Below, piece by piece: positions 8,521-28,144 of a stretch of DNA of 64,000 nucleotides. The stretch lies in NCBI RefSeq assembly GCF_002239585.1, contig NZ_NDFH01000003.1, positions 1,251,283 to 1,315,282 on the forward strand, in the 5' to 3' direction. The position numbers and the translations under genes are program-made. Under the pieces are notes generated by a model. It saw only the letters and a list, made by a program, of their open reading frames with translations, was not told the DNA's origin and searched no databases. This stretch comes from Psychromonas sp. CD1. GTDB taxonomy: Bacteria > Pseudomonadota > Gammaproteobacteria > Enterobacterales > Psychromonadaceae. The stretch's first letter is position 1. Each line of letters starts with the position of its first letter.

Positions 8521-9987
8521 TTAACTAAACCAACTCGATGCAATAAAGCTTGAGAACAAAGACATAATGATCAAAATTACAATCACAATTTTCATTGATA
8601 TCGGCAATGGAGATGCATCTTTGACAGCTTCTGATGGTTCGCCTAGCGCTGTTTTCCCGAACCAGTAAAGGATCCAGCCGAAACTTGCTACTGATTCAAT
8701 CAGCGCAATGATCATGACTGGCATTAACCAAGGGTGCTGTTGAGATAATTGGAAACCTGCTTCAAATAACGGAAATTTACTAAAGAAACCATTAAATGGG
8801 GGTACGCCGGTAATCGCCAGTGCAGCAACACCAAACCCTACCGCTAAAATAGGCGAGGTTTTAATAATACCTTTTAGTGAAGGTAACATGCGTGTACCAC
8901 AAGTGTAACTAAGTGAACCTGCCACTAAGAAAAATAGACTTTTAGCAAAAGCATGGTTAAAGATGTAAGTGATACCACTTTCTAACGCTAGCTTTGAGCC
9001 AAAGACGGACAACGACAACGCTAAGAAGATATAGGCAAGCTGAGTAATGGTTGAATAAGCCAACAATCGTTTCATATCTTTTTGTGGTAGATACAAAATA
9101 AAGCCGTAGATCATAGTCACAATCGCGCCGATTACACCTATCACACCTATAATGTGCGGAATTTCGCCCCCAGACAAAATAGCCCTCGCAAAAATATATA
9201 CGCCCACTTTTACCATTGATGCAGCATGTAAATAAGCACTAACCGGAGTAGGAGCATTCATCGCATCGGGCAACCAAACATGAAAGGGAAGTTGTGCTGA
9301 TTTCCCCCAAGCTGCGAGCATAATACCTAAGAAGACGATAAGTTTAGTTTGATCACTCAGTTGAGCTAGTGCAGAAAGCGAAAAAGTCCCCGTCTCTTTG
9401 AACAACAAAGCCGCCGCGATAAACAAACCAATCGATGCAAAATGTGTCACCAATAACGCTTTTAATGCAGCTTTAAGTGACGTGGCTTTTTGATAATAAC
9501 CAATTAATGCCCAAGAGCATACACCGGTGATCTCAAAAAACAATAATTGACCAATGATAGTTGATGACAACACTAAACCTGCCATTGCACCAATAAAAAT
9601 CAACAAAAAGGCGTAATAACGTGGCTCACCTTCATGTGGATGTTCACGGTTACCTTCCGTCATGTAACCGAGTGAATAAATGCTAACTAAAAAGCCAAGT
9701 ACCACCACCGCAATCACAATTAAAGTACTGACAGCATCAAAAGTAAAGCCAAAAAGCTCGGTATTACCGACGTGAAATAACGTATAATGTAGCGAGTTTT
9801 GCCCGCTAGTTCGATAAAGAAAGGCTAAGACAAGCACGCCAAGCGAAGCAATACCTGCAAAAATCTGACATATCCATTTCGCCATTGGTTTCGCAACCAG
9901 GATGGTGATAAATGCACCCAAAAAAGGCAATAATATGGTCAGAAGCGCCACATTTTTCATTAGAGCAAGGTTTTCCATAATATTCAT
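8521..9987 (-). CDS. hyfD: Hydrogenase-4 antiporter-like membrane subunit HyfD
   Basis: A second NuoL/M/N-type subunit (488 residues, about 14 membrane helices). Conserved elements include GKSAQLPFHVWLPDAMNAPTPVSAYLHAASMVKVGVY, with the Lys and His of the proton channel, and KDMKRLLAYSTITQLAYI. E. coli HyfD is about 479 residues. It starts 6 bases after hyfC. The first ATG has GAGG close upstream, while a second ATG three codons later is equally placed for the family. Confidence 0.94.
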   Translation of the reverse strand: MNIMENLALMKNVALLTILLPFLGAFITILVAKPMAKWICQIFAGIASLGVLVLAFLYRTSGQNSLHYTLFHVGNTELFGFTFDAVSTLIVIAVVVLGFLVSIYSLGYMTEGNREHPHEGEPRYYAFLLIFIGAMAGLVLSSTIIGQLLFFEITGVCSWALIGYYQKATSLKAALKALLVTHFASIGLFIAAALLFKETGTFSLSALAQLSDQTKLIVFLGIMLAAWGKSAQLPFHVWLPDAMNAPTPVSAYLHAASMVKVGVYIFARAILSGGEIPHIIGVIGVIGAIVTMIYGFILYLPQKDMKRLLAYSTITQLAYIFLALSLSVFGSKLALESGITYIFNHAFAKSLFFLVAGSLSYTCGTRMLPSLKGIIKTSPILAVGFGVAALAITGVPPFNGFFSKFPLFEAGFQLSQQHPWLMPVMIIALIESVASFGWILYWFGKTALGEPSEAVKDASPLPISMKIVIVILIIMSLFSSFIASSWFS

Positions 9988-9993
9988 GTACCT

Positions 9994-10947
9994 CTATAAA
10001 CCTGTCAAGTAGAACAAGAAGCCAAGCACCGCAATCCCAAATCCCACCCAAGTCAATTCGTGAGTTTGTACATAGCGGACACGTGCCATGCTGTTTTCCA
10101 ATACACTTGCAATGCTGAAGCACACAAATAATTTAACTAAAAGCCAAATTGTAGCAATGAGTAATGCTGAAATTGTTAATGTTTCGGCTTTGCCAAAAGG
10201 AATAAAAATCGCCAAAAACAGCTGCACCACGACCATTTGCTTTAAACCTAGGCCAATTTTCATTAATGCTAAACCCGATCCAGAATATTCCGTCATCGGT
10301 CCTTCTTGCAATTCTTGTTCAGCTTCTGCAACATCAAAAGGTAATTTTCCCATTTCAATGAAGATAACAAAAGCACAGGCGGCTCCAGCTACCACCGTTG
10401 CAACTGGCGCGATCCAAGGGAGTGTTGCCAATGTGGTACTGATATGACCTAAATCTGACGATCCGGTGATCAGCGCAACAGTAAAAACAGATAAAATTAA
10501 GGTAGGCTCAACCAACACACCTAACGTTAATTCTCTACTCGAGCCTAAACCAGCAAATACGCTACCTGAATCTAACCCTGACAACGCAAAAAAGAAGCGG
10601 AAAATGGCGAATAAATAAATGTCAGTGATCACATCTCCCGCAATGGGAAAGGGAGACTGATTTGTCACCGCAGGCATCGCCATTGCAACTAGCGCCATGG
10701 TGATGATTAACACCCAAGGTGTGATAGAAAAAATCATGCCTGATGGTGAGGGCGCAACATCTTGACGGCGTAGTAATTTATACAAATCACGGTAATCTTG
10801 CAGTACACCAGGCCCTTGTCTTGAATGCATTTTTGCACGGATAACACGGGATAAACCGGTAAACAACGGTGCCAGCGCGAGCATTATTAAAGCTTGAATG
10901 ATAGCGAGTGTTATCATCCCAATGCTTGGAATCTCAAGTCCTTGCAT
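9994..10947 (-). CDS. hyfC: Hydrogenase-4 membrane anchor subunit (NuoH-like)
   Basis: Membrane anchor homologous to NuoH and HycD; it docks the peripheral hydrogenase arm. Residues 37-65 contain RAKMHSRQGPGVLQDYRDLYKLLRR, and a later loop has ELPFD-like EMGKLPFDVAEAEQELQEGPMTEYSG, the family signature in cytoplasmic loops. The length of 317 residues matches E. coli HyfC/HycD (about 310), with eight or so membrane helices. Its ATG overlaps the hyfB stop (TAATG), indicating translational coupling. Confidence 0.95.
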   Translation of the reverse strand: MQGLEIPSIGMITLAIIQALIMLALAPLFTGLSRVIRAKMHSRQGPGVLQDYRDLYKLLRRQDVAPSPSGMIFSITPWVLIITMALVAMAMPAVTNQSPFPIAGDVITDIYLFAIFRFFFALSGLDSGSVFAGLGSSRELTLGVLVEPTLILSVFTVALITGSSDLGHISTTLATLPWIAPVATVVAGAACAFVIFIEMGKLPFDVAEAEQELQEGPMTEYSGSGLALMKIGLGLKQMVVVQLFLAIFIPFGKAETLTISALLIATIWLLVKLFVCFSIASVLENSMARVRYVQTHELTWVGFGIAVLGFLFYLTGL

Positions 10948-12980
10948 TATTTCACTCCTAGATCAAATGGAATTAACAACAAGATAACCAATGCAATAAC
11001 CATATATAGGCAATACCAACGGAAATCACCAAATTGCATGCGTTGCACAATACGCGATAAGCTTTGTGTTGTACGCGCAATGGGCATAAAAATATAATCA
11101 TCGAAACAAGGCTCTATACGCGCTGCAAACGAGGTGGTTTTAATTAAGATCCAAGTAAAGGGAATCGCTAGATTTAATTTGTCACGCAAGGTATATAACG
11201 GCGCATACATAGAGCGAAGAGTATGTGTAAAACTACCCGCATCCACAGTCATACGCTCTTCGTAAGCGTAACCACATGCCCAAGGATCGTTACTATGACG
11301 ACGCTTCATTTTCTGACCTTTAAATAAAGTGACAAGTGCAAAAGGGATCAACAACAGTAATAGTAATGAAATCGCAATAATAGGCTCTGACAAAATAGCC
11401 TGATGCGCAATACCTGGCACTAACGCTAAACCATGTGCCACGGTAACAGCTTGACCTCCGTGCACTAAACTTGCCGCTACGCCTTTAATAACAGGCGCTA
11501 TCCAAGGTGAACCAATGCCAAGTACGATACACATAAGCGCCAGTAAGCTTGTACCTATGACCATTGCAATCGGAGCTTCTGTCGCATTACTGCTCGCTTT
11601 ACTTTTCGGTGCACCTGAAAAACACACACCATACACTTTAACAAAACACATACACGCAAGTGCACCCGTTAAAGCTAGCATCACGACCGCAACGATGCTG
11701 CCTAGCGACATCATCAAATCGCCTTGGCGACCCATGGTCAATAATGATTGATAAATAAACCATTCACTAACAAACCCGTTTAAAGGAGGCAAAGCAGAGA
11801 TTGCCATCGTCCCAATTAAAAAAGCAATCGCGGTGTAAGGCATTAATTTTCCAAGTCCGCCCATTTTATCCATGTCTTTAGTGTGAATTCTGAATATGAC
11901 CGAGCCTGCACCTAGAAATAACAACCCCTTAAAAACTGCATGATTTAACATGTGGTACAATCCACCTAATAAACCAATCGTAGCAAGCACCGGATGATGC
12001 GTTGCAATACCCACCATGCCAACACCTACACCCATTAAGATAATTCCGATATTCTCAACAGTGTGATAGGCCAATAGTCGTTTAATGTCATGTTCAGCAA
12101 GGGCATAAAGCACCCCCAAAACAGAAGACACTGCGCCAAAAGCTAAGACTAAGTAACCCCACCACGCAGTATCTGCACCTAAAAAATCGATACCGACTTT
12201 AATTATCCCAAAAACACCAATTTTCACCATCACTCCCGACATTAATGCTGAGGCATTAGAGGGGGCTGCTGGATGCGCAAGGGGTAACCAACTATGCAGA
12301 GAAATAATTCCTGCTTTGGCACCAAAGCCAAAAAAAGCCAGTAAGAACACCACCGACTCCATTGCTGGCGAAAGATGTGCTGCACGAAAATCTTGGAAAT
12401 TTAAACTACCGGTTGCACGATATAAAATAAAGAAGGCAATCATTATCAGCACTGAGCCTGCGTGCGCAATCAAAAAATACTGCAATCCTGCACGAATCGA
12501 CGCTTCTTTTTGTTCAAAGACAACCAAAAAGTAGGACGCTAGTGACATCATTTCAAAGAAGATAATGAAATAAAAGGCATTATCAGAGATAACTAAAGCG
12601 ACCATCGATGCGATAAAGGTATTCATGAAGAACCCCATCGCCCAAGCACCTTTGCCTTTATACTCTTGCATATAAGCAAGGGAATAAATGCTACAGGCAA
12701 TCACTATCAATGAAATAATAAACACCATTAATGAAGACAATGGGTCTAAGCGTAATATGCAATCTGCAAAATAAAACGGTGATGAGATTTGATAATTCAT
12801 TGCATCAGCGCCAAACAGAACAGGTAAGGAAGCGCAAACGCCAAGTATACCGCCAATTGTCGCTAATACACCGGAGATGGCTATCCCTATCGATTCCTTT
12901 TTTGCCGAAAGAAGAAGCGACATGATCGCAGCTACGACATACAGCGATATTGATGAAAATAATAGCGTAAAAGAAAACAT
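10947..12980 (-). CDS. hyfB: Hydrogenase-4 antiporter-like membrane subunit HyfB
   Basis: The largest membrane subunit (677 residues; HyfB of E. coli is about 672), in the NuoL-like proton antiporter family and homologous to HycC. Conserved elements are FGAKAGIISLHSWLPLAHPAAPSNASALMSGVMVKIGVFG and EHDIKRLLAYHTVENIGII. The C-terminal region includes DPWACGYAYEERM, typical of HycC/HyfB. With HyfD and HyfF, the complex carries three antiporter-like subunits. It begins one base after hyfA stops. Confidence 0.95.
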   Translation of the reverse strand: MFSFTLLFSSISLYVVAAIMSLLLSAKKESIGIAISGVLATIGGILGVCASLPVLFGADAMNYQISSPFYFADCILRLDPLSSLMVFIISLIVIACSIYSLAYMQEYKGKGAWAMGFFMNTFIASMVALVISDNAFYFIIFFEMMSLASYFLVVFEQKEASIRAGLQYFLIAHAGSVLIMIAFFILYRATGSLNFQDFRAAHLSPAMESVVFLLAFFGFGAKAGIISLHSWLPLAHPAAPSNASALMSGVMVKIGVFGIIKVGIDFLGADTAWWGYLVLAFGAVSSVLGVLYALAEHDIKRLLAYHTVENIGIILMGVGVGMVGIATHHPVLATIGLLGGLYHMLNHAVFKGLLFLGAGSVIFRIHTKDMDKMGGLGKLMPYTAIAFLIGTMAISALPPLNGFVSEWFIYQSLLTMGRQGDLMMSLGSIVAVVMLALTGALACMCFVKVYGVCFSGAPKSKASSNATEAPIAMVIGTSLLALMCIVLGIGSPWIAPVIKGVAASLVHGGQAVTVAHGLALVPGIAHQAILSEPIIAISLLLLLLIPFALVTLFKGQKMKRRHSNDPWACGYAYEERMTVDAGSFTHTLRSMYAPLYTLRDKLNLAIPFTWILIKTTSFAARIEPCFDDYIFMPIARTTQSLSRIVQRMQFGDFRWYCLYMVIALVILLLIPFDLGVK

Positions 12981-12981
12981 A

Positions 12982-13608
12982 TTATTTATCCTCCGAAGAC
13001 ATGCAGGTAATCAATGACAATAAAGACCCTGCATTAGCCGCGTCATTTTGTTTTTGTTTTTGCATGGCCAGAGTATTATTAGGATCTACGATGAACAAAG
13101 CTTTCGTTGGGCACGCCTCAACACATGCAGGCCCACCTTCCAGATGAGCACAAAGATCGCATTTAATAGCGATATTTTTTACACCGGGTTCCCACGATAA
13201 TATATCTTTACCGAAACAAATTGGTGAAGAGGTTGTAGGATTACTGCTTCGGACATTCGAGGGAATATATGCATCATAAGCATGAGCAAGTCCTACTCCA
13301 CGGCTACCACTAAAGGCTACCGCGCCAAAAGGACAAGCAATAGCGCATAATCTGCAACCAATACAGAGGCTTTCATTAATATGGATGCTACCGTTTTTAT
13401 GAGTGATAGCATTCACCGGACAAACAGTCGCACAGGGTGCATCTTCACAGTGACGACACAATACAGGTGCAGTTGCATCTTTATTGCGTATCACTGTTAA
13501 CCTAGGGTGGGCTTGCAAACCTTCAGCTTTATGGGTGGTTGAACACGCTGCCATGCAGGTATCACAACCAATACATAACTTCGGATCAGCAATTACAAAG
13601 CGATTCAT
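12982..13608 (-). CDS. hyfA: Hydrogenase-4 four-cluster ferredoxin subunit
   Basis: First gene of the hyf operon, homologous to HycB and HyfA. Four cysteine clusters are visible: CIGCDTCMAAC near residue 12, CRHCEDAPCATVCP, CIGCRLCAIACP and CDLCAHLEGGPACVEACP. It probably accepts electrons from formate dehydrogenase H and passes them to HyfH. It closely resembles HydN (736-1290), and an ancient duplication is likely. The insert between the third and fourth clusters is long, giving 208 residues against about 205 in E. coli HyfA. A sigma-54 promoter lies about 50 bases upstream. Confidence 0.92.
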   Translation of the reverse strand: MNRFVIADPKLCIGCDTCMAACSTTHKAEGLQAHPRLTVIRNKDATAPVLCRHCEDAPCATVCPVNAITHKNGSIHINESLCIGCRLCAIACPFGAVAFSGSRGVGLAHAYDAYIPSNVRSSNPTTSSPICFGKDILSWEPGVKNIAIKCDLCAHLEGGPACVEACPTKALFIVDPNNTLAMQKQKQNDAANAGSLLSLITCMSSEDK

Positions 13609-16226: not shown

Positions 16227-18716
16227 ATGCGACTAACACGAAGATTAATTGAAGTATGCGGTATTGTGCAAGGTGTGGGATTTCGTCCCTTTATATTTCG
16301 CCTTGCCACTAAGCATAACTTGATTGGCTGGGTACTTAATCACGCACAGGGTGTCAGTATTGATGCGCAAGGCACAAAGGCAGAGCTTGATACTTTCATT
16401 GAAAACATTCGGCATCAAGCTCCACCATTAAGTCATATTGACACGCTCACTTGGCAACAATGTGAGTTACACTCAAGTACTGACATGCCCGATAAACATC
16501 AATTTTCGATACGCCAAAGTAACGTCTCTTTAATAAAAAACAATGTTGCTGATAGTCAGTTCAGCACGCATATATCCCCTGATTTTGGAATATGTAACGC
16601 TTGTTTATACGACATTCGCGATCCCAGTAGTCGTTATTATCACTATCCACTCACTAACTGCACACATTGCGGACCGCGCTTTAGCATTATCCGCGCCTTG
16701 CCCTACGACAGAAAAAACACATCGATGGCAGATTTTACGATGTGTGCAGAATGTTTGCATGCCTACGAAGATCCAAACAATCGACGCTATCACGCACAGC
16801 CCATTAGCTGCCCCCATTGCGGACCTCAAATTCAATGGCGCATACCTCACAATGCAAGTTCGCCAGCCTTAGAATCGATGGCGGTATTACAACAAGCAGC
16901 GAGTGCTATTACAGCCGGTAATATAGTGGCAATTAAAGGCATAGGCGGTTTTCATTTGGTTTGTGATGCCACCAATAAAAGTGCCATTAACAAACTGCGG
17001 AAAAGTAAACATCGCCCAAGTAAACCATTCGCTATCATGGTTAAAGATCGTGCGCAAGCGCGACATTATGTACAAGGCTGTGAAACCCAATGGAAACTAC
17101 TTGAATCACAACAACGCCCAATAACATTGCTACGTAAGCATAGTGTTTTATCACTAAAAACAAAGGCAAGTAACACCGACATAACAACAGAGCTTGCCAA
17201 TAACATCGCTGAAAACGTCCCTTATTTAGGCATAATGATGCCCTACACTCCGTTGCACTATTTATTATTTGATTATCTTGATGTGCCACTAGTGTTCACC
17301 AGCGCCAACCGTACAGGCCACCCAATATTAACTGAAGGTGACGACGTCGTCGCCAGTTTTAAACAGACCATTGTAGGGCTTATCGATCACCCAAGAAAAA
17401 TCATCAATACTTGTGACGACAGCCTGGTACATTTTGCCGGTGGTCAGCGTCAAATGCTACGCTTAGGCAGAGGATTCGCACCCTATTATTTCGCATTGCC
17501 AAATATTTTAACGCAACCGACATTAGCCGTGGGCGCACAACAAAAAGTCAGTTTTGCCATTGGTGCACGCCAAAGTAAGCAACAAAGCCAAGCTATTATT
17601 AGCCCTTATATTGGCGATTTAAATAACTTAGACATGCAACAACATTATCAAGATCGTGTAGCGAGCCTTACACAGTTACATCAAATTAAGGTAGCTCGTT
17701 ATTGTTGTGACAAGCACCCAAGATATACCACGCATCAATGGGCGCACCAGCAAGCAAATATCACATCAGCGGAAATTAGCATGGTGCCACATCATTATGC
17801 ACACGTTTTATCTGTCATGGCCGAGCACCAATTACAACGTGATGTATTAGGCTTTAGCTTTGATGGCACAGGTCTTGGTGATCTCGATGCAGAGCAACGA
17901 GAAAAACATCACTCCGGCTCAAAGATGCAGTGCAACTTATGGGGAGGCGAAGTCTTTATTGCCGACACTAAAAACTGCCAACGACGCTATTCATTAAAAC
18001 CCTTTAGACTGATTGGTGGAGAGAAAGCGATCACTTCGCCACCACGTTTATTATTTTCTCTCTTACTTGAATATTATTCATTTGAACAAATAATATTCAT
18101 GCAGCTTAGTCCTTTCCAAAACTTACTCACACATCAACTAGAAAATTGGCATCGACTCTGGGAACAAGGCATTAATAGTCCCTATACCAGCTCAATCGGT
18201 CGTTTTATTGATGCTTATTGTGCCTTACTGACGGGGATAGAAACGATTACCTTTGATGGTGAATGTGGTTTATTACTTGAACAGTTGGCATTATCAGAGG
18301 AAAATAATGGCGATGTTAATCAGATAAATAATCACCCTTCTTTATTTACTATCCATGAAGGTGAATTTGATTTTCTACCACTGCTTAAACATATTATCGA
18401 GATCTTATCATCCGATAAAAGCGCCTCTTTTTATAAAAAATGCGCGCAATTATTATTTACGCAAATAAGTGATTTAATTGTTAAAATTAGTGACCAACAC
18501 CCCACACTGCCAATAGTACTTTGCGGTGGAGTATTCCAAAATAGAGTATTGATGGATACCGTGTTAACTCAGTTGAAAAATCTAGATAAAACGTATTACG
18601 TTAGTCAAACCATACCCTTAAACGATGGGGGTATTGCAGCAGGCCAGCTTTGGTTTATCGCCCATCAAAATCAGGTAGAAAACGAAAAAATGATAACGAC
18701 TAATAGTGTCAACTAA
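16227..18716 (+). CDS. hypF: Carbamoyltransferase HypF
   Basis: Makes the cyanide ligands of the NiFe site from carbamoyl phosphate, together with HypE. Domains in order: acylphosphatase (VQGVGFR at 14-20, with the catalytic Arg20, and Asn38); two zinc fingers (Cys123, 126, 145, 148 and Cys173, 176, 195, 198); a YrdC-like domain (KGIGGFHLVCDATN, KHRPSKPFAIM, FTSANRTGHP); and a Kae1-like domain (VPHHYAHVLSVMAEH, FDGTGLG, CGGVFQNRVL, NDGGIAAGQ). At 829 residues it is longer than E. coli HypF (750), but every key residue is present. It starts 56 bases after hupE. Confidence 0.96.
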   Translation: MRLTRRLIEVCGIVQGVGFRPFIFRLATKHNLIGWVLNHAQGVSIDAQGTKAELDTFIENIRHQAPPLSHIDTLTWQQCELHSSTDMPDKHQFSIRQSNVSLIKNNVADSQFSTHISPDFGICNACLYDIRDPSSRYYHYPLTNCTHCGPRFSIIRALPYDRKNTSMADFTMCAECLHAYEDPNNRRYHAQPISCPHCGPQIQWRIPHNASSPALESMAVLQQAASAITAGNIVAIKGIGGFHLVCDATNKSAINKLRKSKHRPSKPFAIMVKDRAQARHYVQGCETQWKLLESQQRPITLLRKHSVLSLKTKASNTDITTELANNIAENVPYLGIMMPYTPLHYLLFDYLDVPLVFTSANRTGHPILTEGDDVVASFKQTIVGLIDHPRKIINTCDDSLVHFAGGQRQMLRLGRGFAPYYFALPNILTQPTLAVGAQQKVSFAIGARQSKQQSQAIISPYIGDLNNLDMQQHYQDRVASLTQLHQIKVARYCCDKHPRYTTHQWAHQQANITSAEISMVPHHYAHVLSVMAEHQLQRDVLGFSFDGTGLGDLDAEQREKHHSGSKMQCNLWGGEVFIADTKNCQRRYSLKPFRLIGGEKAITSPPRLLFSLLLEYYSFEQIIFMQLSPFQNLLTHQLENWHRLWEQGINSPYTSSIGRFIDAYCALLTGIETITFDGECGLLLEQLALSEENNGDVNQINNHPSLFTIHEGEFDFLPLLKHIIEILSSDKSASFYKKCAQLLFTQISDLIVKISDQHPTLPIVLCGGVFQNRVLMDTVLTQLKNLDKTYYVSQTIPLNDGGIAAGQLWFIAHQNQVENEKMITTNSVN

Positions 18717-18764: not shown

Positions 18765-19022
18765 ATGTGCTTATGTATACCGTCTAAAATTTGTGCGTTT
18801 CACGACGAAGAGGGCCTGGTGACAGTGGATACCTTAGGTGTTCAGCGCCAAATATGTACTCAATTAATAAGCGAACCACTCGCTATTGGAGACTATCTTC
18901 TGATCCACGTTGGCTTTGCCATTAGCAAGCTCAATCACGAAGAAGCACAAGAAAGCCTAACTGAATATCGCTCAATGCTGGACAATATGTCCGCAGAAGA
19001 TGCACAAGCCCTATTTAATTAA
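18765..19022 (+). CDS. hypC: Hydrogenase maturation chaperone HypC
   Basis: Small chaperone that carries the Fe(CN)2CO unit with HypD and delivers it to the large subunit. The N-terminus MCLCIPSKI holds the essential Cys2, and GDYLLIHVGFAISKLN is the family core. Length of 85 residues is normal. A second copy lies at 27881-28144. It sits 48 bases after hypF and 30 before hypD; AGAGA precedes the ATG. Confidence 0.95.
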   Translation: MCLCIPSKICAFHDEEGLVTVDTLGVQRQICTQLISEPLAIGDYLLIHVGFAISKLNHEEAQESLTEYRSMLDNMSAEDAQALFN

Positions 19023-19052: not shown

Positions 19053-20166
19053 ATGGATTTAAAAGAACTATATCAGGGTTTCCGTGATCCTTTGATCATG
19101 AAGGCACTCACCAAGAAAATTAACATAAACGCGAAACAGTTACCTCATCCACTTAAGGTGATGGAAGTGTGTGGCGGACATACTCATACCATTATGAAAT
19201 ATGGATTAATGCAACTACTACCTGAAAATATTGAATTTATTCATGGTCCAGGTTGCCCTGTGTGCATCATGCCGAAAGAAAGAATCGATCAGGCAATTGA
19301 ACTTGCTATGCTACCTGACACTATTTTAGTCACATTAGGCGATATGATCCGCGTGCCTGGATCAAAAGGCACGCTCGCACAATGTCGAGCCCGTGGCGGT
19401 GATATCCGCCCCATTTACGACCCGATGGATACGCTTGTCATAGCAAAAGAAAACCCTACAAAATCAGTCATTTACTTTGCGATTGGTTTTGAAACTACGA
19501 CTCCAATGACGGCTGTTTTAATGCAAGTTGCAGATCAACAAAAACTAAGCAACTTTTATGTTCACTGTAATCATGTTTTAGTTCCTCCAGCTATTAATGC
19601 TGTAATGTCAGATGGTCGCGCCAAAATAAACGCATTTATTGGGCCGTCACATGTCAGTGTGATAACGGGTGCAAAAATATATCAATGTGTGGCAGACAAA
19701 TATAATCTTCCTGTCGTAGTGGCTGGCTTTGAACCCGTTGATGTCATGCAATCGATACTGATGTTAGTCGATCTTACCATTGCAGCAGCTCAACACGACT
19801 CCCCTCCAGGAATGTCAATTCAATACAGCCGTGCGGTAAGCATGGAAGGTAACTTGATTGCGCAAACAAAAATCAATGAGGTTTTTGAAATTCGAGATGT
19901 ATTTCGCTGGCGCGGTTTAGGCGACATTGCTAATTCTGCCTTAAAAATACGCGATAAATATGCACACTTTGATGCTGAGATTGTCTTCAAAGCCCATTTT
20001 TTTACGTGGTTTAGCAAAACCAAATCAGTGTAAAGTTTTCGGAAAAAACTGTACTCCTAGCCAGCCAATGGGCAGTTGCATGGTGAGCTCTGAGGGCGCA
20101 TGTAATGCGTATTTTCGTTATTCTGGTTTAAATAAAAAAATGCAAACAAAAAAAGAGTTTAGGTAG
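19053..20166 (+). pseudogene. hypD: hypD, apparently frameshifted near the C-terminus
   Basis: HypD assembles the Fe(CN)2CO group with HypC. The first 310 residues carry all core motifs: CGGHTHT, GPGCPVCIMP, GFETTTPM, PSHVSVITG and FEPVDVM. After HFDAE (ending 19979) the frame reads IVFKAHFFTWFSKTKSV and stops at 20033. The missing C-terminus is in the +1 frame and ends at 20166: FLRGLAKPNQCKVFGKNC and GSCMVSSEGAC. A run of seven T at 19997-20003 is the likely slip site; with six T the product would be about 370 residues. Even so, the usual stretch with the cysteines before the CKVFG motif (about 14 residues) seems absent. Either a real lesion or an assembly error. Confidence 0.8.
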
Positions 20167-20170
20167 CAAT

Positions 20171-21172
20171 ATGCAACAAATACAATTAAGTCACGGTGGT
20201 GGCGGTCAAGAAATGAATCGCTTGATCAAAGATCTGTTCTTCCATCACTTCACAAATAAAATATTATTAAAAATGGAAGATGCTGCCATTTTACCCACTA
20301 ACGGAAAAATCGCATTTACCACCGACAGCTTTACGGTTTCACCTCTTTTCTTTGCAGGTGGCGACATCGGAAAATTAGCCATTGCAGGAACAGTCAACGA
20401 CCTTGCAATGATGGGAGCTAAACCGGAATATTTAAGCTGTAGCTTTATGATTGAAGAAGGTTTTAGTTACGCAGATTTAAAAACAATAGTACAAAGTATG
20501 CAAAAAGAATTAGCCGTATCTGGGGCGAAAATTGTCTGTGGCGACACGAAAGTTGTGCCTAGGGGAACGTTAGATGGTGTATTTATTAACACCACCGGTG
20601 TAGGCAGTTTTTATCATTCTCAAACGTTATCCGCCAGTGCTATTCAAGCAGGCGATGCTATTCTATTATCTCGCGATATTGGTTGTCATGGAAGTTGTAT
20701 TTTGATGGCGCGTGATGCGTTAAAACTGAGCTCTAACCTCATTAGTGATTGTGCAACTTTATGGCCAGTTGTAGAGATGCTACTCGATAAAAATATCACA
20801 CTACATGCCTTACGTGATGCAACGCGTGGGGGGATATCTGCGGTATTAAATGAATGGTGCGTTGCCTCAGAGGTTCAACTTGACATCAATGAAGAGAATA
20901 TTCCAGTGAGCGATGAAGTCAATGGCTTATGTGAACTATATGGTTTTGAATCTTACGATCTGGCAAATGAAGGCACGATGGTATTAGCCGTGCCTCAATC
21001 AGAAGTGGCTGCTACATTAGCCGTTTTGCGCCTGTTTTCTGTCTCTGCAAGTCATATAGGTAATGCCTGTCACAATGAAGAAGGCAATCATAAAGTGATT
21101 TTACATAGCCCTTGGGGCAGTCGTCGTTACCTTGATCTTCCACAGGGCGAATTATTACCTAGGATTTGTTAA
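20171..21172 (+). CDS. hypE: Hydrogenase maturation protein HypE
   Basis: ATP-dependent dehydratase that turns the carbamoyl group received from HypF into a thiocyanate on its C-terminal cysteine. It starts with LSHGGGGQEMNRLI and has DAAIL, TTDSFTVSPLFF and GDIGKLAIAGTVNDLAMMGA (ATP-binding AIRS fold), and ends in the essential PRIC. Length of 333 residues is normal. It begins five bases after the C-terminal hypD frame ends, which itself suggests that the 20166 stop is the original end of hypD. Confidence 0.96.
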   Translation: MQQIQLSHGGGGQEMNRLIKDLFFHHFTNKILLKMEDAAILPTNGKIAFTTDSFTVSPLFFAGGDIGKLAIAGTVNDLAMMGAKPEYLSCSFMIEEGFSYADLKTIVQSMQKELAVSGAKIVCGDTKVVPRGTLDGVFINTTGVGSFYHSQTLSASAIQAGDAILLSRDIGCHGSCILMARDALKLSSNLISDCATLWPVVEMLLDKNITLHALRDATRGGISAVLNEWCVASEVQLDINEENIPVSDEVNGLCELYGFESYDLANEGTMVLAVPQSEVAATLAVLRLFSVSASHIGNACHNEEGNHKVILHSPWGSRRYLDLPQGELLPRIC

Positions 21173-21381: not shown

Positions 21382-22518
21382 ATGGAAACTCATAAAGCTT
21401 TATTCCAGCAAGGTCAACATCGCCTTGATAAACTGAAGCAATTAGCACCACGAGCGGGCGATAGTCTACTTGAAAAAATGTCGGCGAAAGGCATTAATCG
21501 TCGCGACTTTATGAAATGGAGTGCTGTGGTGACTTCCATGTTAGCACTACCCAACCCTTTTACGAGTCTAGTAGCGCAAGCTGCTGAAATCGCGGATCGT
21601 GTCCCTTTGATTTGGCTCCATTTAGCAGAGTGTACGGGTTGTACTGAATCGCTTCTACGCGCAGATACACCATCCATTGATACGCTTATTTTTGATCATG
21701 TGTCATTGGAATACCATGAAACATTAATGGTAGCGTCAGGTTTCCAAGCAGAAGAAAACTTACAAAACGCACTTGAAAAATACAAAGGTAAGTATTTACT
21801 AGCCGTTGAAGGTGGGGTTCCTACCGCAGATAATGGGTCATTCTTAACCTTAGGCCCACATGGTGAAACTGGTCTTAGTCGCGTACAAAAAGCAGCTAAA
21901 GATGCCGTCGCTATTATTGCCGTTGGCACCTGTGCTTCTTTTGGCGGAATTCAAGCCGCCGCGCCAAATCCAACGGGCACAAAAGGCGTACAAGAAGTAG
22001 TGAAACAACCCGTAATAAATTTAGGTGGTTGCCCCCCTAACGAACGTAATATTGTCGGCACATTAATGTATTATATCATGTTCGGAAAACTACCCCCCTT
22101 AGATATGTTCAACCGTCCCAAATGGGCTTACGGCTCCCGAGTGCACGATGACTGTGAACGTCGAGGCCACTTTGATTCTGGAGAATTTGTAGAAGAATTT
22201 GGTAGCCAAGAAGCAAAAGATGGCCATTGCTTGTACAAAATGGGATGTAAAGGCCCCTACACTTACAATAACTGCCCAACCGAACGCTTTAATGGACACA
22301 CTAGCTGGCCTGTACTTGCAGGGCATGGCTGTATTGGCTGTTCTGAACCCGATTTTTGGGACGCTATGTCTGATTTTGAAAAACCGCTAAGTCGCCGCTT
22401 ATTAACCGGATTAGACAGTACTGCGGATACCATTGGTGCAGTCATACTCGGCGCCGCAGTTGTCGGTATAGGGGCACATGCCATTGCTACTTTTTTTGTT
22501 AAACCTGTGGATTATTGA
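21382..22518 (+). CDS. hyaA: [NiFe] uptake hydrogenase small subunit, Tat-exported
   Basis: Electron-transfer subunit of a periplasm-facing, membrane-bound hydrogenase. The twin-arginine signal NRRDFMKWS spans residues 39-47, with likely cleavage near VAQA at 64-67. Cluster ligands are in ECTGCTES (Cys84, Cys87), GTCASFGG, GGCPPNE, KMGCKGPYTYNNCP and GHGCIGCSEPDFWD. A C-terminal membrane anchor occupies the last 30 residues. The extra cysteines that make E. coli Hyd-1 oxygen tolerant (CTCCTES and SSWGC) are replaced by glycine here, so a standard, oxygen-sensitive proximal cluster is expected. First gene of the hya operon. Confidence 0.95.
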   Translation: METHKALFQQGQHRLDKLKQLAPRAGDSLLEKMSAKGINRRDFMKWSAVVTSMLALPNPFTSLVAQAAEIADRVPLIWLHLAECTGCTESLLRADTPSIDTLIFDHVSLEYHETLMVASGFQAEENLQNALEKYKGKYLLAVEGGVPTADNGSFLTLGPHGETGLSRVQKAAKDAVAIIAVGTCASFGGIQAAAPNPTGTKGVQEVVKQPVINLGGCPPNERNIVGTLMYYIMFGKLPPLDMFNRPKWAYGSRVHDDCERRGHFDSGEFVEEFGSQEAKDGHCLYKMGCKGPYTYNNCPTERFNGHTSWPVLAGHGCIGCSEPDFWDAMSDFEKPLSRRLLTGLDSTADTIGAVILGAAVVGIGAHAIATFFVKPVDY

Positions 22519-22521
22519 TTT

Positions 22522-24222
22522 ATGAATAAACGTATTGTCATCGACCCTATTACGCGTATTGAGGGTCACCTTCGTGTTGAAGTTGAAGTAGATGCTTCCA
22601 ATGTCATTCAAAAAGCGTGGGTATCATCAACGCTATGGCGAGGCATTGAAGTGATTGTAAAAAACCGTTCTCCACTTGACGTTGGATTAATGGTACAACG
22701 TATCTGTGGGGTCTGTACCTATTCTCATTATCGTTGTAGTACCGAAGCAATTGAAAATGCATTAGGACTTAACATTCCTATTAATGCACAATATATTCGA
22801 AGCCTGATGATGACAGCTCTGCATTTACACGATCACATTATTCACTTTTATCATCTTCATGGTTTAGATTGGATAGATATTATATCCGCATTAAGTGCAG
22901 ATCCAGCTAAAGCGGCACAAGTCGCGATGAAATATTCAGATACCCCTATTTTATGTGGTGAAGGTGATTTGCGTCAAGTACAGAAACGTATAAAAGGCTT
23001 AACTGACACCGGTAAATTAGGTCCATTTGCCAATGGTTACTGGGGTAATAAGACCTATAAGTTTAGTCCAGAGCAAAACTTGATAGCGTTATCACATTAC
23101 CTAAAAGCCCTAGAAGTACAACGTGTTGCGGCCCAAATGTTAGCTATTTTTGGTGGGAAATCGCCACATCCTCAATCTATTGTGGTGGGTGGTATTACCT
23201 CTGTACGCGATATATTAAGCCCAGCTCGCCTGCAAGAATGGAAACAAAAGCTTGATGAGGTAGGCCACTTTATAGAAAATGCTTATTACCCAGACCTTCT
23301 AATGGTCGCCGATGCCTTTAAAAATGAACCAAGTGTACTTGGTGGCTTAAATATTAAAAACTTTCTCTGTACCGATGAGTTTTTACTGAGTAAAGGTAAA
23401 TATTTATTTACCCAAGGTGTTGTAAAAAATGGCGATCTTTCTAAAGTATTTGATTTAAACCCTGATGATATTCGAGAAGATGTTACCCACTCATGGTACT
23501 CAGCCGATGCACCTCAGCATCCGTATGAAGGGACAACAATCCCTGAATATACCGGATTTATTGAACGTGAGACGCTTAATGGTAAACTGCCAACATTAAA
23601 TGAAGATGGAAAATACTCTTGGATTAAATCACCACGCTATCAAGGTGAAGCCTTTGAAGTAGGCCCACTAGCGACATTAGTCGTTAACTACGCACGTGGT
23701 AATGAGTTAATTGTGCAAGAAGTCGACACTTTCTTAAGTAAAGCGGGCTTACCAATGAGCGCATTACTCACGACCCTTGGTCGCACCGTAGCTCGCATGT
23801 TAGAAACCGTTATCAATCTACGTGAAAGTGAAAAAACATTTAATGCTTTGGTAAGTAATATAGAAGTGGATGAATCAACTTACATCGAACCTTTCATTGA
23901 TCCAACTAAAATCTACGAGGGTTATAAAATGATTGAAGCACCACGTGGAATGCTTAGTCATTGGATCCGCATTAAAGATGGTAAAGTCGAAAATTATCAA
24001 GCAGTTGTACCAACAACATGGAATGCTGGACCGACAGATGAGAATGGCCGAATTGGGCCTTATGAAGCATCGTTAATTGGCATTAAATTGGAAGATCCAA
24101 GTAAACCACTTGAAGTGCTACGTATTATTCATTCTTTTGACCCTTGCATGTCGTGCTCTGTTCACGTCATGGATTATAACAAGCAGTCACTAGGTGCATT
24201 TAAAGTGAACACCGCAATTTAA
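22522..24222 (+). CDS. hyaB: [NiFe] uptake hydrogenase large subunit
   Basis: Catalytic NiFe subunit that oxidises H2. Nickel ligands are in RICGVCTYSH (Cys62, Cys65) and DPCMSCSVH (Cys542, Cys545). After His548 an 18-residue tail (VMDYNKQS to the end) should be removed by the HyaD protease. Length of 566 residues is normal for group 1. It begins 3 bases after hyaA, and the folded pair is exported on the HyaA Tat signal. Confidence 0.96.
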   Translation: MNKRIVIDPITRIEGHLRVEVEVDASNVIQKAWVSSTLWRGIEVIVKNRSPLDVGLMVQRICGVCTYSHYRCSTEAIENALGLNIPINAQYIRSLMMTALHLHDHIIHFYHLHGLDWIDIISALSADPAKAAQVAMKYSDTPILCGEGDLRQVQKRIKGLTDTGKLGPFANGYWGNKTYKFSPEQNLIALSHYLKALEVQRVAAQMLAIFGGKSPHPQSIVVGGITSVRDILSPARLQEWKQKLDEVGHFIENAYYPDLLMVADAFKNEPSVLGGLNIKNFLCTDEFLLSKGKYLFTQGVVKNGDLSKVFDLNPDDIREDVTHSWYSADAPQHPYEGTTIPEYTGFIERETLNGKLPTLNEDGKYSWIKSPRYQGEAFEVGPLATLVVNYARGNELIVQEVDTFLSKAGLPMSALLTTLGRTVARMLETVINLRESEKTFNALVSNIEVDESTYIEPFIDPTKIYEGYKMIEAPRGMLSHWIRIKDGKVENYQAVVPTTWNAGPTDENGRIGPYEASLIGIKLEDPSKPLEVLRIIHSFDPCMSCSVHVMDYNKQSLGAFKVNTAI

Positions 24223-24280
24223 AAACACCACTTTAAATTAAAGTTCATATTTAACAATGTATTACACAGGATATATAGCC

Positions 24281-25081
24281 ATGAGTGAATCACCACAAGT
24301 GCTTTCAGCATCGCAACAAGTAAAGCTAAAAGGCCGGGTCACACACATACCGACGATGAGAGAGTTTGCCTTTACACCACTGATCCGTATTTTTCATTGG
24401 CTACGGTTTCTTGCTATCATGATTTTACTAATCAGTGGTTTTTATATTGCATGGCCATTTTTAATGGATCCAAAGTCCACCGATGTATTGATCCAAGGTT
24501 GGATGCGTTTTTCGCATTTAATCTTTGGATTCATTTTTTCGTGTATCACCATTAGTCGTAATTATTTATTCTTATTCTCAAAAGATAAGAGTGAACGTCG
24601 CTCCTTGCTTGATGCGCTGAGCATTGATCGTTGGAGATCGCAGATAAAAGCTTATGTGTTTTTAGGCAAACCTGATGAAAAGTCAGGGCTTTATGGCCCT
24701 TTACAATTAGTGACTTATGCCTCGTTCTACAGCTGCTCACTCATTATGGTGCTGACCGGTTTAGCCTTATACAGCAGAGTTTATCACGAAGGTTTAGGCC
24801 AATTACTTTATGCCCCGGCTTCTTGGTTAACCTATATATGCGGTGGCCTTGCCAATGTACGTAATATTCATCATTGGTTTACTTGGGTGTTTATTGTTTT
24901 TTTAATTGTGCATGTATACATGGTTATTTGGACCGGTATTCGCTTTAAAAAAGCAGCGGTAGATGCCATTATTTCTGGTTATGATTATCATACCCATGCG
25001 CATATAGAGCCCTTCCCTGTCACCACGTCAGAATCGGTCAATATTAACGAGCCCACCATTCCTAATAAGAGCATCTTGTGA
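24281..25081 (+). CDS. hyaC: Hydrogenase cytochrome b subunit HyaC
   Basis: Dihaem cytochrome b membrane subunit that passes electrons from the small subunit to the quinone pool. Four hydrophobic helices are visible, with haem-ligand-type histidines in RIFHWLRF, FSHLIFGF, and IHHWFTWVFIVFLIVHVYMVIW. The frame opens at 24257, but the ATG at 24281 (MSESPQ) has AGGA nine bases upstream and is preferred; that gives 266 residues against about 235 in E. coli. The stop overlaps the GTG start of hyaD. Confidence 0.92.
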   Translation: MSESPQVLSASQQVKLKGRVTHIPTMREFAFTPLIRIFHWLRFLAIMILLISGFYIAWPFLMDPKSTDVLIQGWMRFSHLIFGFIFSCITISRNYLFLFSKDKSERRSLLDALSIDRWRSQIKAYVFLGKPDEKSGLYGPLQLVTYASFYSCSLIMVLTGLALYSRVYHEGLGQLLYAPASWLTYICGGLANVRNIHHWFTWVFIVFLIVHVYMVIWTGIRFKKAAVDAIISGYDYHTHAHIEPFPVTTSESVNINEPTIPNKSIL

Positions 25082-25674
25082 AAACTTCAGAGATTAATAA
25101 CATTAACACAGCAAAGTCGTCTCAAGAGAAGATACATCCTCGGCGCTTATTACTCTTAGGTATCGGCAATATCTTATACGGTGATGAAGGGATAGGCGTA
25201 CACTTTATTAATTATATTTCTGATAAATATAACATCGAAAATCCTGCTTATAAATTTGATATTGTTGATGGTGGAACGCTTGCCCATGGATTGATCCCTA
25301 TGCTTGCCACCTATGATGAATTAATTGTGGTGGACACCATCAATAGCCAAGATGGTGAAATTGGCGATGTGTATTTTTTTAATTTTGATAACACCCCGCC
25401 TGATGTCGATTGGCAAGGTAGCGCACATGAAGTTGAAATGTTACAGACGTTAATAATGATGGATATGGTAGGAGACCGACCTAACACCTTTGTTTTAGGT
25501 GTTATTCCGACTGTCATAGAACCGATGTTTATGGGTCTCACGCCTCAGATTAAAAATGCTGTCGCCACTATGGAACAACAATTACTACGACACTTAACCC
25601 ATCTTGGATTTACGCTTACCATCAAGAAATCTATAACGATCAATGATGTTATTCAAGATGCACAAAAACGATAA
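25078..25674 (+). CDS. hyaD: Hydrogenase maturation protease HyaD
   Basis: Endopeptidase that processes the HyaB C-terminus. The motif LLLGIGNILYGDEGIGVHFI holds the conserved nickel-sensing Glu, and DGGTLAHGL, VVDTI and GSAHEVEMLQTL follow. It starts with GTG overlapping the hyaC stop by four bases, so the two are translationally coupled. Length of 198 residues matches E. coli HyaD (195). A different protease, HycI, serves the hyf enzyme. Confidence 0.94.
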   Translation: MKTSEINNINTAKSSQEKIHPRRLLLLGIGNILYGDEGIGVHFINYISDKYNIENPAYKFDIVDGGTLAHGLIPMLATYDELIVVDTINSQDGEIGDVYFFNFDNTPPDVDWQGSAHEVEMLQTLIMMDMVGDRPNTFVLGVIPTVIEPMFMGLTPQIKNAVATMEQQLLRHLTHLGFTLTIKKSITINDVIQDAQKR

Positions 25675-25760: not shown

Positions 25761-27812
25761 ATGAACACCCTACTTTGTTTTGATTTTATCTGCACACAGC
25801 CCGTGCCCTTTTACCAGCACTTATGTAATCTTTTATTACGCGCACACCCCTTAGTGACACTGCAATCGAATGATATATTTACAGAGACTGCGCAAATAAG
25901 TATTGATAATGGCTATTTAAAAAATGGCCATTATCGCTACCGAATAGAAGCGCAAGGCACACAAATACAACTTGAAACCCTAGCCGATAGGATTGCTAAA
26001 GACTTCTTACTCTCTGTACATTTGGTAAAAGCGAAGATAACGCCATTAGAAAAGTCTCAAGGGAGCACTTCCATACAGATTCTAAAAAGCACCGAATTAC
26101 CTTCGACTCAGAAAAAACGTTTATTTTCTAAAAATGACGCCATTAATTCCCCATTATATGAGCTTATTCATCTTGATTATTGTGCGACATGCACACCTTT
26201 ATTTGGTGATAATCAAAGTCCAAAGTTTGCTCAAATAGATTTGATTTGCCCATGTTGCCATGGTGAAGAGCATTATAAAATACACAAAGAAGCGCTATTA
26301 ACTAAGCAAGATGGTATTAAAAGATCACCTTCACTGACAACGCTAACCCAAGAACGTTTATTCTCGTTAGCAAAAGAACTCCTATCCGAACACACTGTCA
26401 AGATAGAAGAACTCGGTGTCACACTGAGTACCCAAGTCGCTTTATTTGAACACTCTGAGCAACTTCGACCACAAATATTGATATGTAATCCTAATACCTT
26501 AAACCTGTTTTTTAATACAACGAGTGAACAAGTGATCACTCTTTCCTGTTTTGAAAAACCCGCGATAACACTCACAACAAAAGACGCAATTCAAATACAC
26601 TCATCTTCTAGTAAAATTAATGCAGCAAGCTGTGATGTTCGATTTGCCTACAACAGAGCGTTGATCATTGTGACTGAGTATTTACGCCAAAAAGGAATTG
26701 ATTTTCTGTACTACAGAGTAAATACTCCCATTGCACATATGGCATTTATTGACCAACATTGGATCTGGCTACAACAACCTTATAGCATTGCTTTAAATAC
26801 AACACGTGATACCTTGCGCGATAACGCTGTCGTCGGCAATTATCAGGCAATGGAGCTTAAAAAAAGGGTTGTAATACATAACTCAGTTTCCTTAGTGTTG
26901 CCCGTTAAATCGCAAGATCAGGCCTTTAATGCTCTATATGCAACTCAATTTTCTCAGGCCTCAATAAACAAACAAGATATCGTCACGATATTTTTAAGTC
27001 GCAATAGTTTAAGCCAAATTATTACCAGTAATCGCCTTCGAGATAACGGTAAAATAGAGAAAGATAAAGCTGAGAGTATTCTTCAATTTCCCAAATTACC
27101 AAATAATGGCATTGATTTTATTCAACAACTACGCGCATCAATCAAACCTAATATAGAAGGTAATTTACTAACCTCTGTGAGTATCATTGATAAGTTTCAA
27201 CTCGCTTATCCCTCTCAATACCACGCATTATCAACAATGAAATTGAGTGACCAAAGCCAAAACTTAACGTCTTTATTAGTAGTGGCTGCCACGTTATTAG
27301 GCTTATCAGAAGAAAGTTCGTTAAGCGAGCAACAAAGCAATCAACAAGCTGTCGACAGGCTCTTAACATTCGCGGGTTACTTTCCAACGGAGCACTCTCC
27401 GCACATTGATTTCCCAAAAAACGTCCTAGAAAAAAGCACTCTGGACAGCGCACCTAGCAGTTTTGATTGGTGTCAAACTTTTAAAAGTTTAATGAGTTTT
27501 TGCTTAGCAAAAAAGAGTTTAAAACCTACCGATAAAGATGAAGAGAATTCTCACACAGCTCGTTTAGCATTTGGATTTTTAGATTCTTTAGCCGATGAAA
27601 TGAGTCAGTGGATAGAAACAGCTGGGCATCGAGTTGGCATTACAAATGTGCTCTTAGCTGGCGATGAATTTCAATATACGCTTTTTACCAGAAGACTCTG
27701 TCGCCGTTTAAAAAACAATTATTTGATACATGCTAGCTGGCACTTAGATTTAGAAGGTGCTAATTTAGTAGCGGGTGCACTCTATTTGCCACGCCGACGT
27801 ACGTACCCTTAG
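25761..27812 (+). CDS. Degenerate HypF paralogue in the hya operon
   Basis: No standard name is recognised, but the 683-residue protein lines up with HypF (16227-18716) end to end. RIEAQGTQIQLETLADRI matches the HypF acylphosphatase stretch IDAQGTKAELDTFIENI. Cys141, 144, 163 and 166 keep the exact C-x2-C-x18-C-x2-C spacing of HypF zinc finger 1. EQVITLSCFEKPAITLTTK matches the HypF stretch QWKLLESQQRPITLLRK. Near the end, NVLLAGDEFQYTLFTRRLCRRL matches PIVLCGGVFQNRVLMDTVLTQL. The catalytic VQGVGFR, zinc finger 2, the HHxxH motif and the NDGG loop are missing. It is therefore probably inactive as a carbamoyltransferase and may be a scaffold or specificity factor for Hya maturation (inference). 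Followed by a second hypC. Confidence 0.75.
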   Translation: MNTLLCFDFICTQPVPFYQHLCNLLLRAHPLVTLQSNDIFTETAQISIDNGYLKNGHYRYRIEAQGTQIQLETLADRIAKDFLLSVHLVKAKITPLEKSQGSTSIQILKSTELPSTQKKRLFSKNDAINSPLYELIHLDYCATCTPLFGDNQSPKFAQIDLICPCCHGEEHYKIHKEALLTKQDGIKRSPSLTTLTQERLFSLAKELLSEHTVKIEELGVTLSTQVALFEHSEQLRPQILICNPNTLNLFFNTTSEQVITLSCFEKPAITLTTKDAIQIHSSSSKINAASCDVRFAYNRALIIVTEYLRQKGIDFLYYRVNTPIAHMAFIDQHWIWLQQPYSIALNTTRDTLRDNAVVGNYQAMELKKRVVIHNSVSLVLPVKSQDQAFNALYATQFSQASINKQDIVTIFLSRNSLSQIITSNRLRDNGKIEKDKAESILQFPKLPNNGIDFIQQLRASIKPNIEGNLLTSVSIIDKFQLAYPSQYHALSTMKLSDQSQNLTSLLVVAATLLGLSEESSLSEQQSNQQAVDRLLTFAGYFPTEHSPHIDFPKNVLEKSTLDSAPSSFDWCQTFKSLMSFCLAKKSLKPTDKDEENSHTARLAFGFLDSLADEMSQWIETAGHRVGITNVLLAGDEFQYTLFTRRLCRRLKNNYLIHASWHLDLEGANLVAGALYLPRRRTYP

Positions 27813-27880: not shown

Positions 27881-28144
27881 ATGTGTTTATCAGTTCCATC
27901 GAAAGTTATTATAATTCATGATGATTTAACCGTCACTGTCGAATCACTTGGTGTTCAGCGACGCGTCAGCACCCATTTAATGTTAACGCCTCTCGAAATA
28001 GGAGATTTTGTACTTATTCATGTGGGATTTGTAATGAACACCATCGATAAAGAAGAAGTCGCCGCAAGTTTAGCACTATATCAAGAGATAGCAGACAGCC
28101 TGCAAGCTGAAGATGATGCCTTATGGAATGCACAGCATCAATAA
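27881..28144 (+). CDS. Second HypC-family chaperone, Hya-linked
   Basis: Small maturation chaperone with the essential Cys2 in MCLSVPSKV and the core VESLGVQRRVS and IGDFVLIHVGFVMNTIDKEEV. It is clearly a paralogue of HypC (18765-19022). E. coli likewise has a pair (HypC and HybG) that serve different large subunits, so this copy is probably dedicated to HyaB. It is the last gene of the hya operon, 68 bases after the HypF paralogue. Confidence 0.92.
   Translation: MCLSVPSKVIIIHDDLTVTVESLGVQRRVSTHLMLTPLEIGDFVLIHVGFVMNTIDKEEVAASLALYQEIADSLQAEDDALWNAQHQ

Follow-up and report, generated by a model that had tools for sequence, protein, structure and literature searches.

The window, a 64,000-nucleotide stretch of Psychromonas sp. 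CD1 with a GC content of about 38%, carries a [NiFe]-hydrogenase cluster on the forward strand. The structural genes assigned by Pfam are hyaA for the small subunit (21382-22518, with a Tat signal and the standard ECTGCTES motif in its sequence), hyaB for the large subunit (22522-24222), hyaC for a cytochrome b (24257-25081) and hyaD for the maturation protease (25078-25674). They are followed by an open reading frame of 683 codons at 25761-27812 (+), the product of which is designated here X, and by a second hypC gene (27881-28144). Upstream on the same strand lie a canonical hypF (16227-18716; Pfam and NCBIfam matches, all catalytic motifs present), the first hypC (18765-19022), hypD (19053-20033) and hypE (20171-21172), all recognized by Pfam. 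The hypD frame is shortened by a frameshift: within 19053-20166 the Pfam HypD match stops at position 294 of 351, and the conserved C-terminal end is encoded in a different frame beyond seven consecutive T near 19997-20003, owing either to an error of assembly or to a true frameshift. Since hydrogenase-4/formate-hydrogenlyase-like membrane and ferredoxin genes (8521-13608, complementary strand) adjoin hypB/hypA, two [NiFe] systems may rely on a single set of hyp genes that includes two hypC.

The initial annotation had read X as a full-length HypF paralogue without catalytic residues, alignable with the HypF of the window over its whole length. The reading frame, the neighbours hyaD and second hypC (Pfam) and the proposed finger were all confirmed, the last being C141-x2-C144-x18-C163-x2-C166 with spacing identical to that in both HypF fingers. 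The whole-length alignment could not be reproduced with the single proteins: BLASTP of X against the HypF of the window gave nothing significant (best E 0.063), phmmer against PDB gave no match, the NCBIfam model TIGR00143 (hypF) reported no match up to E 10, and Pfam PF22521 (HypF_C_2) reached only E 0.0015 and 18.8 bits, below its cut-off of 27. The relation of X to HypF is beyond the reach of pairwise methods and was therefore tested through the family of X, of which 44 members were examined. At this level PF22521 matched 44/44 members (best 4e-10) and the curated TIGR00143 model matched 34/44 (best 2.3e-5), while the reverse search with the X family profile retrieved, from two genomes, long frames of HypF size (E about 4e-6).

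When regions of X and HypF were compared by hhalign the domain matches were largely colinear. The C-terminus of X (residues 350-683, 26808-27809) matched best the Kae1 domain (P 1.5e-6), as also indicated by Pfam, and the cysteine region (residues 141-166, 26181-26258) matched best HypF finger 2 (P 3.6e-4), to which the single C2-C2 zinc finger of X is slightly nearer. The N-terminus (residues 1-100, 25761-26060) had acylphosphatase as its best match (P 0.0014 over 25 columns), and its assignment as an acylphosphatase-like beta-alpha-beta-beta-alpha-beta domain is based on this local alignment and on the structure model. For the middle region (residues 190-345, 26328-26795) an acylphosphatase stretch ranked first (P 0.006 over 11 columns) and YrdC second (P 0.013), the support for a shortened YrdC/Sua5-like domain being mainly structural.

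The structure of X was predicted by AlphaFold2 from the 44-row alignment (pLDDT 83.5, pTM 0.87). In a Foldseek search of PDB the best nine matches of the model were all HypF (top E 3.2e-16), and VIA-align superimposed it on full-length HypF chains with Z of 18-20 over 534-542 residues, starting at residue 1 or 2 and ending at 681-682 of X. Residues 1-345 folded alone (pLDDT 81.4) again matched HypF first (E 6e-8, Z 12). This N-terminal model also matched acylphosphatases at Z of about 7 over residues 1-106 and TsaC/Sua5 at Z of about 8 over residues 189-345, values in the range of common folds and clearly exceeded by HypF; nothing relevant was retrieved for X from a viral fold library. The acylphosphatase-, zinc-finger-, YrdC- and Kae1-like domains thus stand in the model in HypF order, contrary to the structural outcome (absence of these folds) that the initial annotation had named as evidence against its reading. 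Hence the whole-length correspondence with HypF, missed by BLASTP and marginal by Pfam, holds by family profiles, colinear hhalign matches and predicted fold. X shares domain order and overall fold with HypF (TIGR00143; PDB 3vth, 3vti, 4g9i, 3tsp), but its zinc finger is single where HypF has two, its YrdC domain is shortened, its catalytic motifs are missing and its identity to the solved HypF proteins is about 11-13%.

Motif loss was counted in the 44 X sequences against 20 HypF sequences (that of the window and 19 from the same loci). The motifs VQGVGFRP, SAN, HHxxH and FDG are present in 20/20 HypF and in 0/44 X, so that the acylphosphatase-like domain is without its GVGFR cradle and the YrdC- and Kae1-like domains without SAN and HHxxH, respectively. 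NDGG was found in 15/20 HypF and 0/44 X, and GGFH and GTGLG, each present in 15 to 20 of the 20 HypF, are likewise missing from all X. Exactly one C-x2-C-x17-19-C-x2-C finger occurs in each of the 44 X proteins and two in HypF, which bears out the losses noted in the initial annotation (VQGVGFR, second finger, HHxxH, NDGG). Of the catalytic motifs YrdC KxR...SxN and Kae1 HxxH...D (PMC9654439) X retains just scattered K.R, S.N and H..H matches. The role of a carbamate carrier, suggested earlier for X, is disfavoured because X has lost both its acylphosphatase cradle and the motifs KxR...SxN and HxxH. Canonical HypF, one above threshold in each of three genomes checked, coexists with X and retains its motifs, hence X is no replacement for it. 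The modelled fold, the family profiles and the motif counts together show X to be a HypF pseudoenzyme, an old paralogue of this carbamoyltransferase in which the predicted four-domain fold was kept and the motifs of all three catalytic centres were lost.

Motif loss and sequence divergence might also be expected of a functionless, decaying hypF duplicate, an explanation to which we assign a negligible probability: the median dN/dS of X (16 usable close pairs) is 0.089, compared with 0.115 for hypF and 0.022 for hyaB, its frame is open in nearly all of 119 genomes and its linkage to HyaB is strict. The selection and co-occurrence data refute a pseudogene. In three genomes (G146, G169 and G201) hyaB and/or X matched in separate pieces or with stops, and in G169 both genes are broken together.

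The four finger cysteines and Cys242 (44/44) are invariant in X, and about 60 columns are nearly so, C11 and C22 (43/44) among them; E265-K266-P267, R299 and W570 are conserved as well. Such conservation, with the low dN/dS, could point to an enzyme of altered chemistry, in which C11, C22, C242, E265-K266-P267, R299 and W570 form a new site for a carbamoyl, thiocyanate or CO-ligand intermediate; we regard this as unlikely in view of the loss of VQGVGFR, SAN, HHxxH and FDG, and because the Kae1 first lobe, where the HypF active site is located, ranks with the least conserved regions of X. The most conserved part is the fingers and YrdC domain in HypF and the C-terminal lobe of the Kae1-like domain in X, a shift that fits a change from catalysis to putative binding.

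Two genomes from the taxonomic order of the window supplied the first relatives of X. A contig scan with the single X sequence detected no relatives; an alignment query did detect them, and the profile-guided scan placed X in 61 named loci, almost all of Shewanella, the exceptions being Sansalvadorimonas verongulae, an Aestuariirhabdus MAG and a record labelled Photobacterium. No match was found in a plasmid collection. The order hyaA-B-C-D-X is kept in 61/61 named loci and is usually followed by hypF-B-C-D-E-A; in Sansalvadorimonas it is hyaABCD-X-hypC, the same as in the window. In the closest relative found (L132, genome G740; HyaB 85% and X 47% identical to those of the window) the hyaABCD-X cassette stands alone on a second contig and hypF is on another. 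The constant order and cassettes with hypF elsewhere indicate that X travels with the hydrogenase and not with the hyp genes.

Among 146 genomes of a single family, mostly Shewanella, X and HyaB are found in an identical set of 119. Of 369 Gammaproteobacteria drawn evenly, 79 possess HyaB relatives, and X was present only in the genome of the window and absent from the other 78. The X-associated HyaB proteins are 65-85% identical to HyaB of the window, whereas the full-length HyaB of the draw genomes devoid of X are less than 50% identical. The genome of the window is the only one of 24 in its genus with HyaB and the only one among those surveyed with X, which suggests that both were acquired or retained jointly. 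X is therefore a component and marker of one periplasmic [NiFe]-hydrogenase subtype, inherited and mobilized with hyaABCD. Since most hydrogenases of the HyaB type elsewhere mature in the absence of X, any need for it would be subtype-specific. The proposal of a dedicated Hya factor is strongly supported by the HyaB co-occurrence (119/119) and the mobility with hyaABCD, and X, maintained by selection alongside the hydrogenase, is probably an unrecognized dedicated assembly helper.

Two further roles were weighed against the composition of these clusters. X could be an oxygen-protection factor for HyaB maturation acting as the HupF-HupK pair, given that HupK/HoxV, which are related to a hydrogenase protein but catalytically inactive, have been proposed to protect against O2 (PMC12134894). 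This reading, advanced earlier as an oxygen shield, is disfavoured and appears very improbable because HyaA of the window and of 60/61 loci has the standard proximal-cluster motif ECTGC(S/T)ES (CTGC) and not the extra cysteines of O2-tolerant enzymes, and the HyaF/HupH (HupH/HoxQ) family is absent from 15/15 X-bearing genomes. The same absence, together with the lack of a visible HyaE-like gene in the hya loci, would suit X as a chaperone for HyaA, the small subunit, or for export, replacing the HyaE/HybE-type Tat proofreading proteins and having nothing to do with cofactor synthesis. The evolutionary-rate partial correlations of X are weak and highest with HyaD (0.39) and HyaA (0.37), with HypF about equal; HypE and HyaB are not singled out. 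The first two values agree with a Tat chaperone, but a HypF-derived fold is an odd origin for one, and since borderline matches to the thioredoxin-like PF07449 exist elsewhere in X genomes the HyaE role may already be covered; we hold this alternative to be rather improbable, though less so than oxygen protection.

A scaffold or carrier role of X is plausible, and we give about even chances to X being a non-catalytic, HypF-fold maturation partner dedicated to Hya that docks HypE or HypF near the HyaB precursor. HypF and HypE are known to form a stable complex (PMC12134894). X would work in the cytoplasm without catalysis of its own and, through a surface shaped like that of HypF, chiefly at the conserved C-terminal lobe of the Kae1-like domain, would dock HypE or HypF, and possibly HypC/HypD too. 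Docking close to the HyaB precursor would direct the synthesis or transfer of Fe(CN)2CO to HyaB, and HyaD would cleave HyaB after this cofactor step. The weak rate correlations given above and the maturation of most other HyaB-type enzymes in the absence of X weigh against this reading.

By analogy, such a role would resemble that of TsaB supporting TsaD, or of HoxV/HupK as a dead scaffold. TsaB, the degenerate TsaD paralogue of t6A synthesis with a Kae1/ASKHA fold, always accompanies its active relative and works by binding (PMC9654439). X too accompanies an active paralogue (HypF in 3/3 genomes checked, and a hypF close by in nearly all of the named loci), but TsaB is a single Kae1-like domain, unlike X. 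Like X, HoxV/HupK, a proposed scaffold for Fe(CN)2CO (PMC12134894), is related to a hydrogenase protein but catalytically dead, and is encoded inside a hydrogenase cluster. HoxV/HupK proteins, however, are similar to the large subunit of hydrogenase and are treated in connection with O2-tolerant enzymes, whereas X resembles HypF (its Pfam match is HypF_C_2 and not NiFeSe_Hases) and accompanies a standard-type enzyme.

The [NiFe] maturation pathway is usually given as HypA-F with HypX and a few scaffolds. With slightly less than even confidence, we propose that one [NiFe]-hydrogenase subtype requires a further, seventh protein of the Hyp class, namely a HypF pseudoenzyme of full length in a Hya-dedicated complex, which would be the first non-catalytic HypF in maturation. 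If X is required, it would account for the specificity of maturation for a subtype and be relevant to the production of Shewanella-type hydrogenases in other hosts. X would then also be, after TsaB, the second case of a pseudoenzyme of the Kae1 family that serves an active paralogue. Shewanella is genetically tractable. HyaB mutants of Shewanella exist (PMC12410911).

The suggestion that this architecture may be undescribed stands in part. In the literature searched, from which subscription journals were mostly absent, no paper ties X to HypF, nor was a conserved dead HypF strictly accompanying one hydrogenase subtype found. The gene itself is widespread and has been annotated in Shewanella as of unknown function: in Shewanella marisflavi BBL25, orf_02374 (1758 bp), located between HydD and HypF, carries the label 'Ni-Fe hydrogenase' (eggNOG 11KJA, category S; PMC10236175 Table 6). 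By position and length it belongs to the family of X, and its annotation gives neither a HypF relation nor a function; X of the S. marisflavi locus L092 has 585 amino acids, which fits the 1758 bp of the BBL25 gene. The hydrogenase genes of S. oneidensis MR-1 are SO_2099-2097, with SO_2096 as hyaD, SO_2093 as hypB and SO_2092 as hypC, and its maturation genes are ordered hypFBCDEA (PMC2262068, PMC7784907); by position X should be SO_2095. In two other species, Shewanella fodinae and S. mangrovi (L081 and L084), a duplicated hyaABC block precedes hyaD-X.
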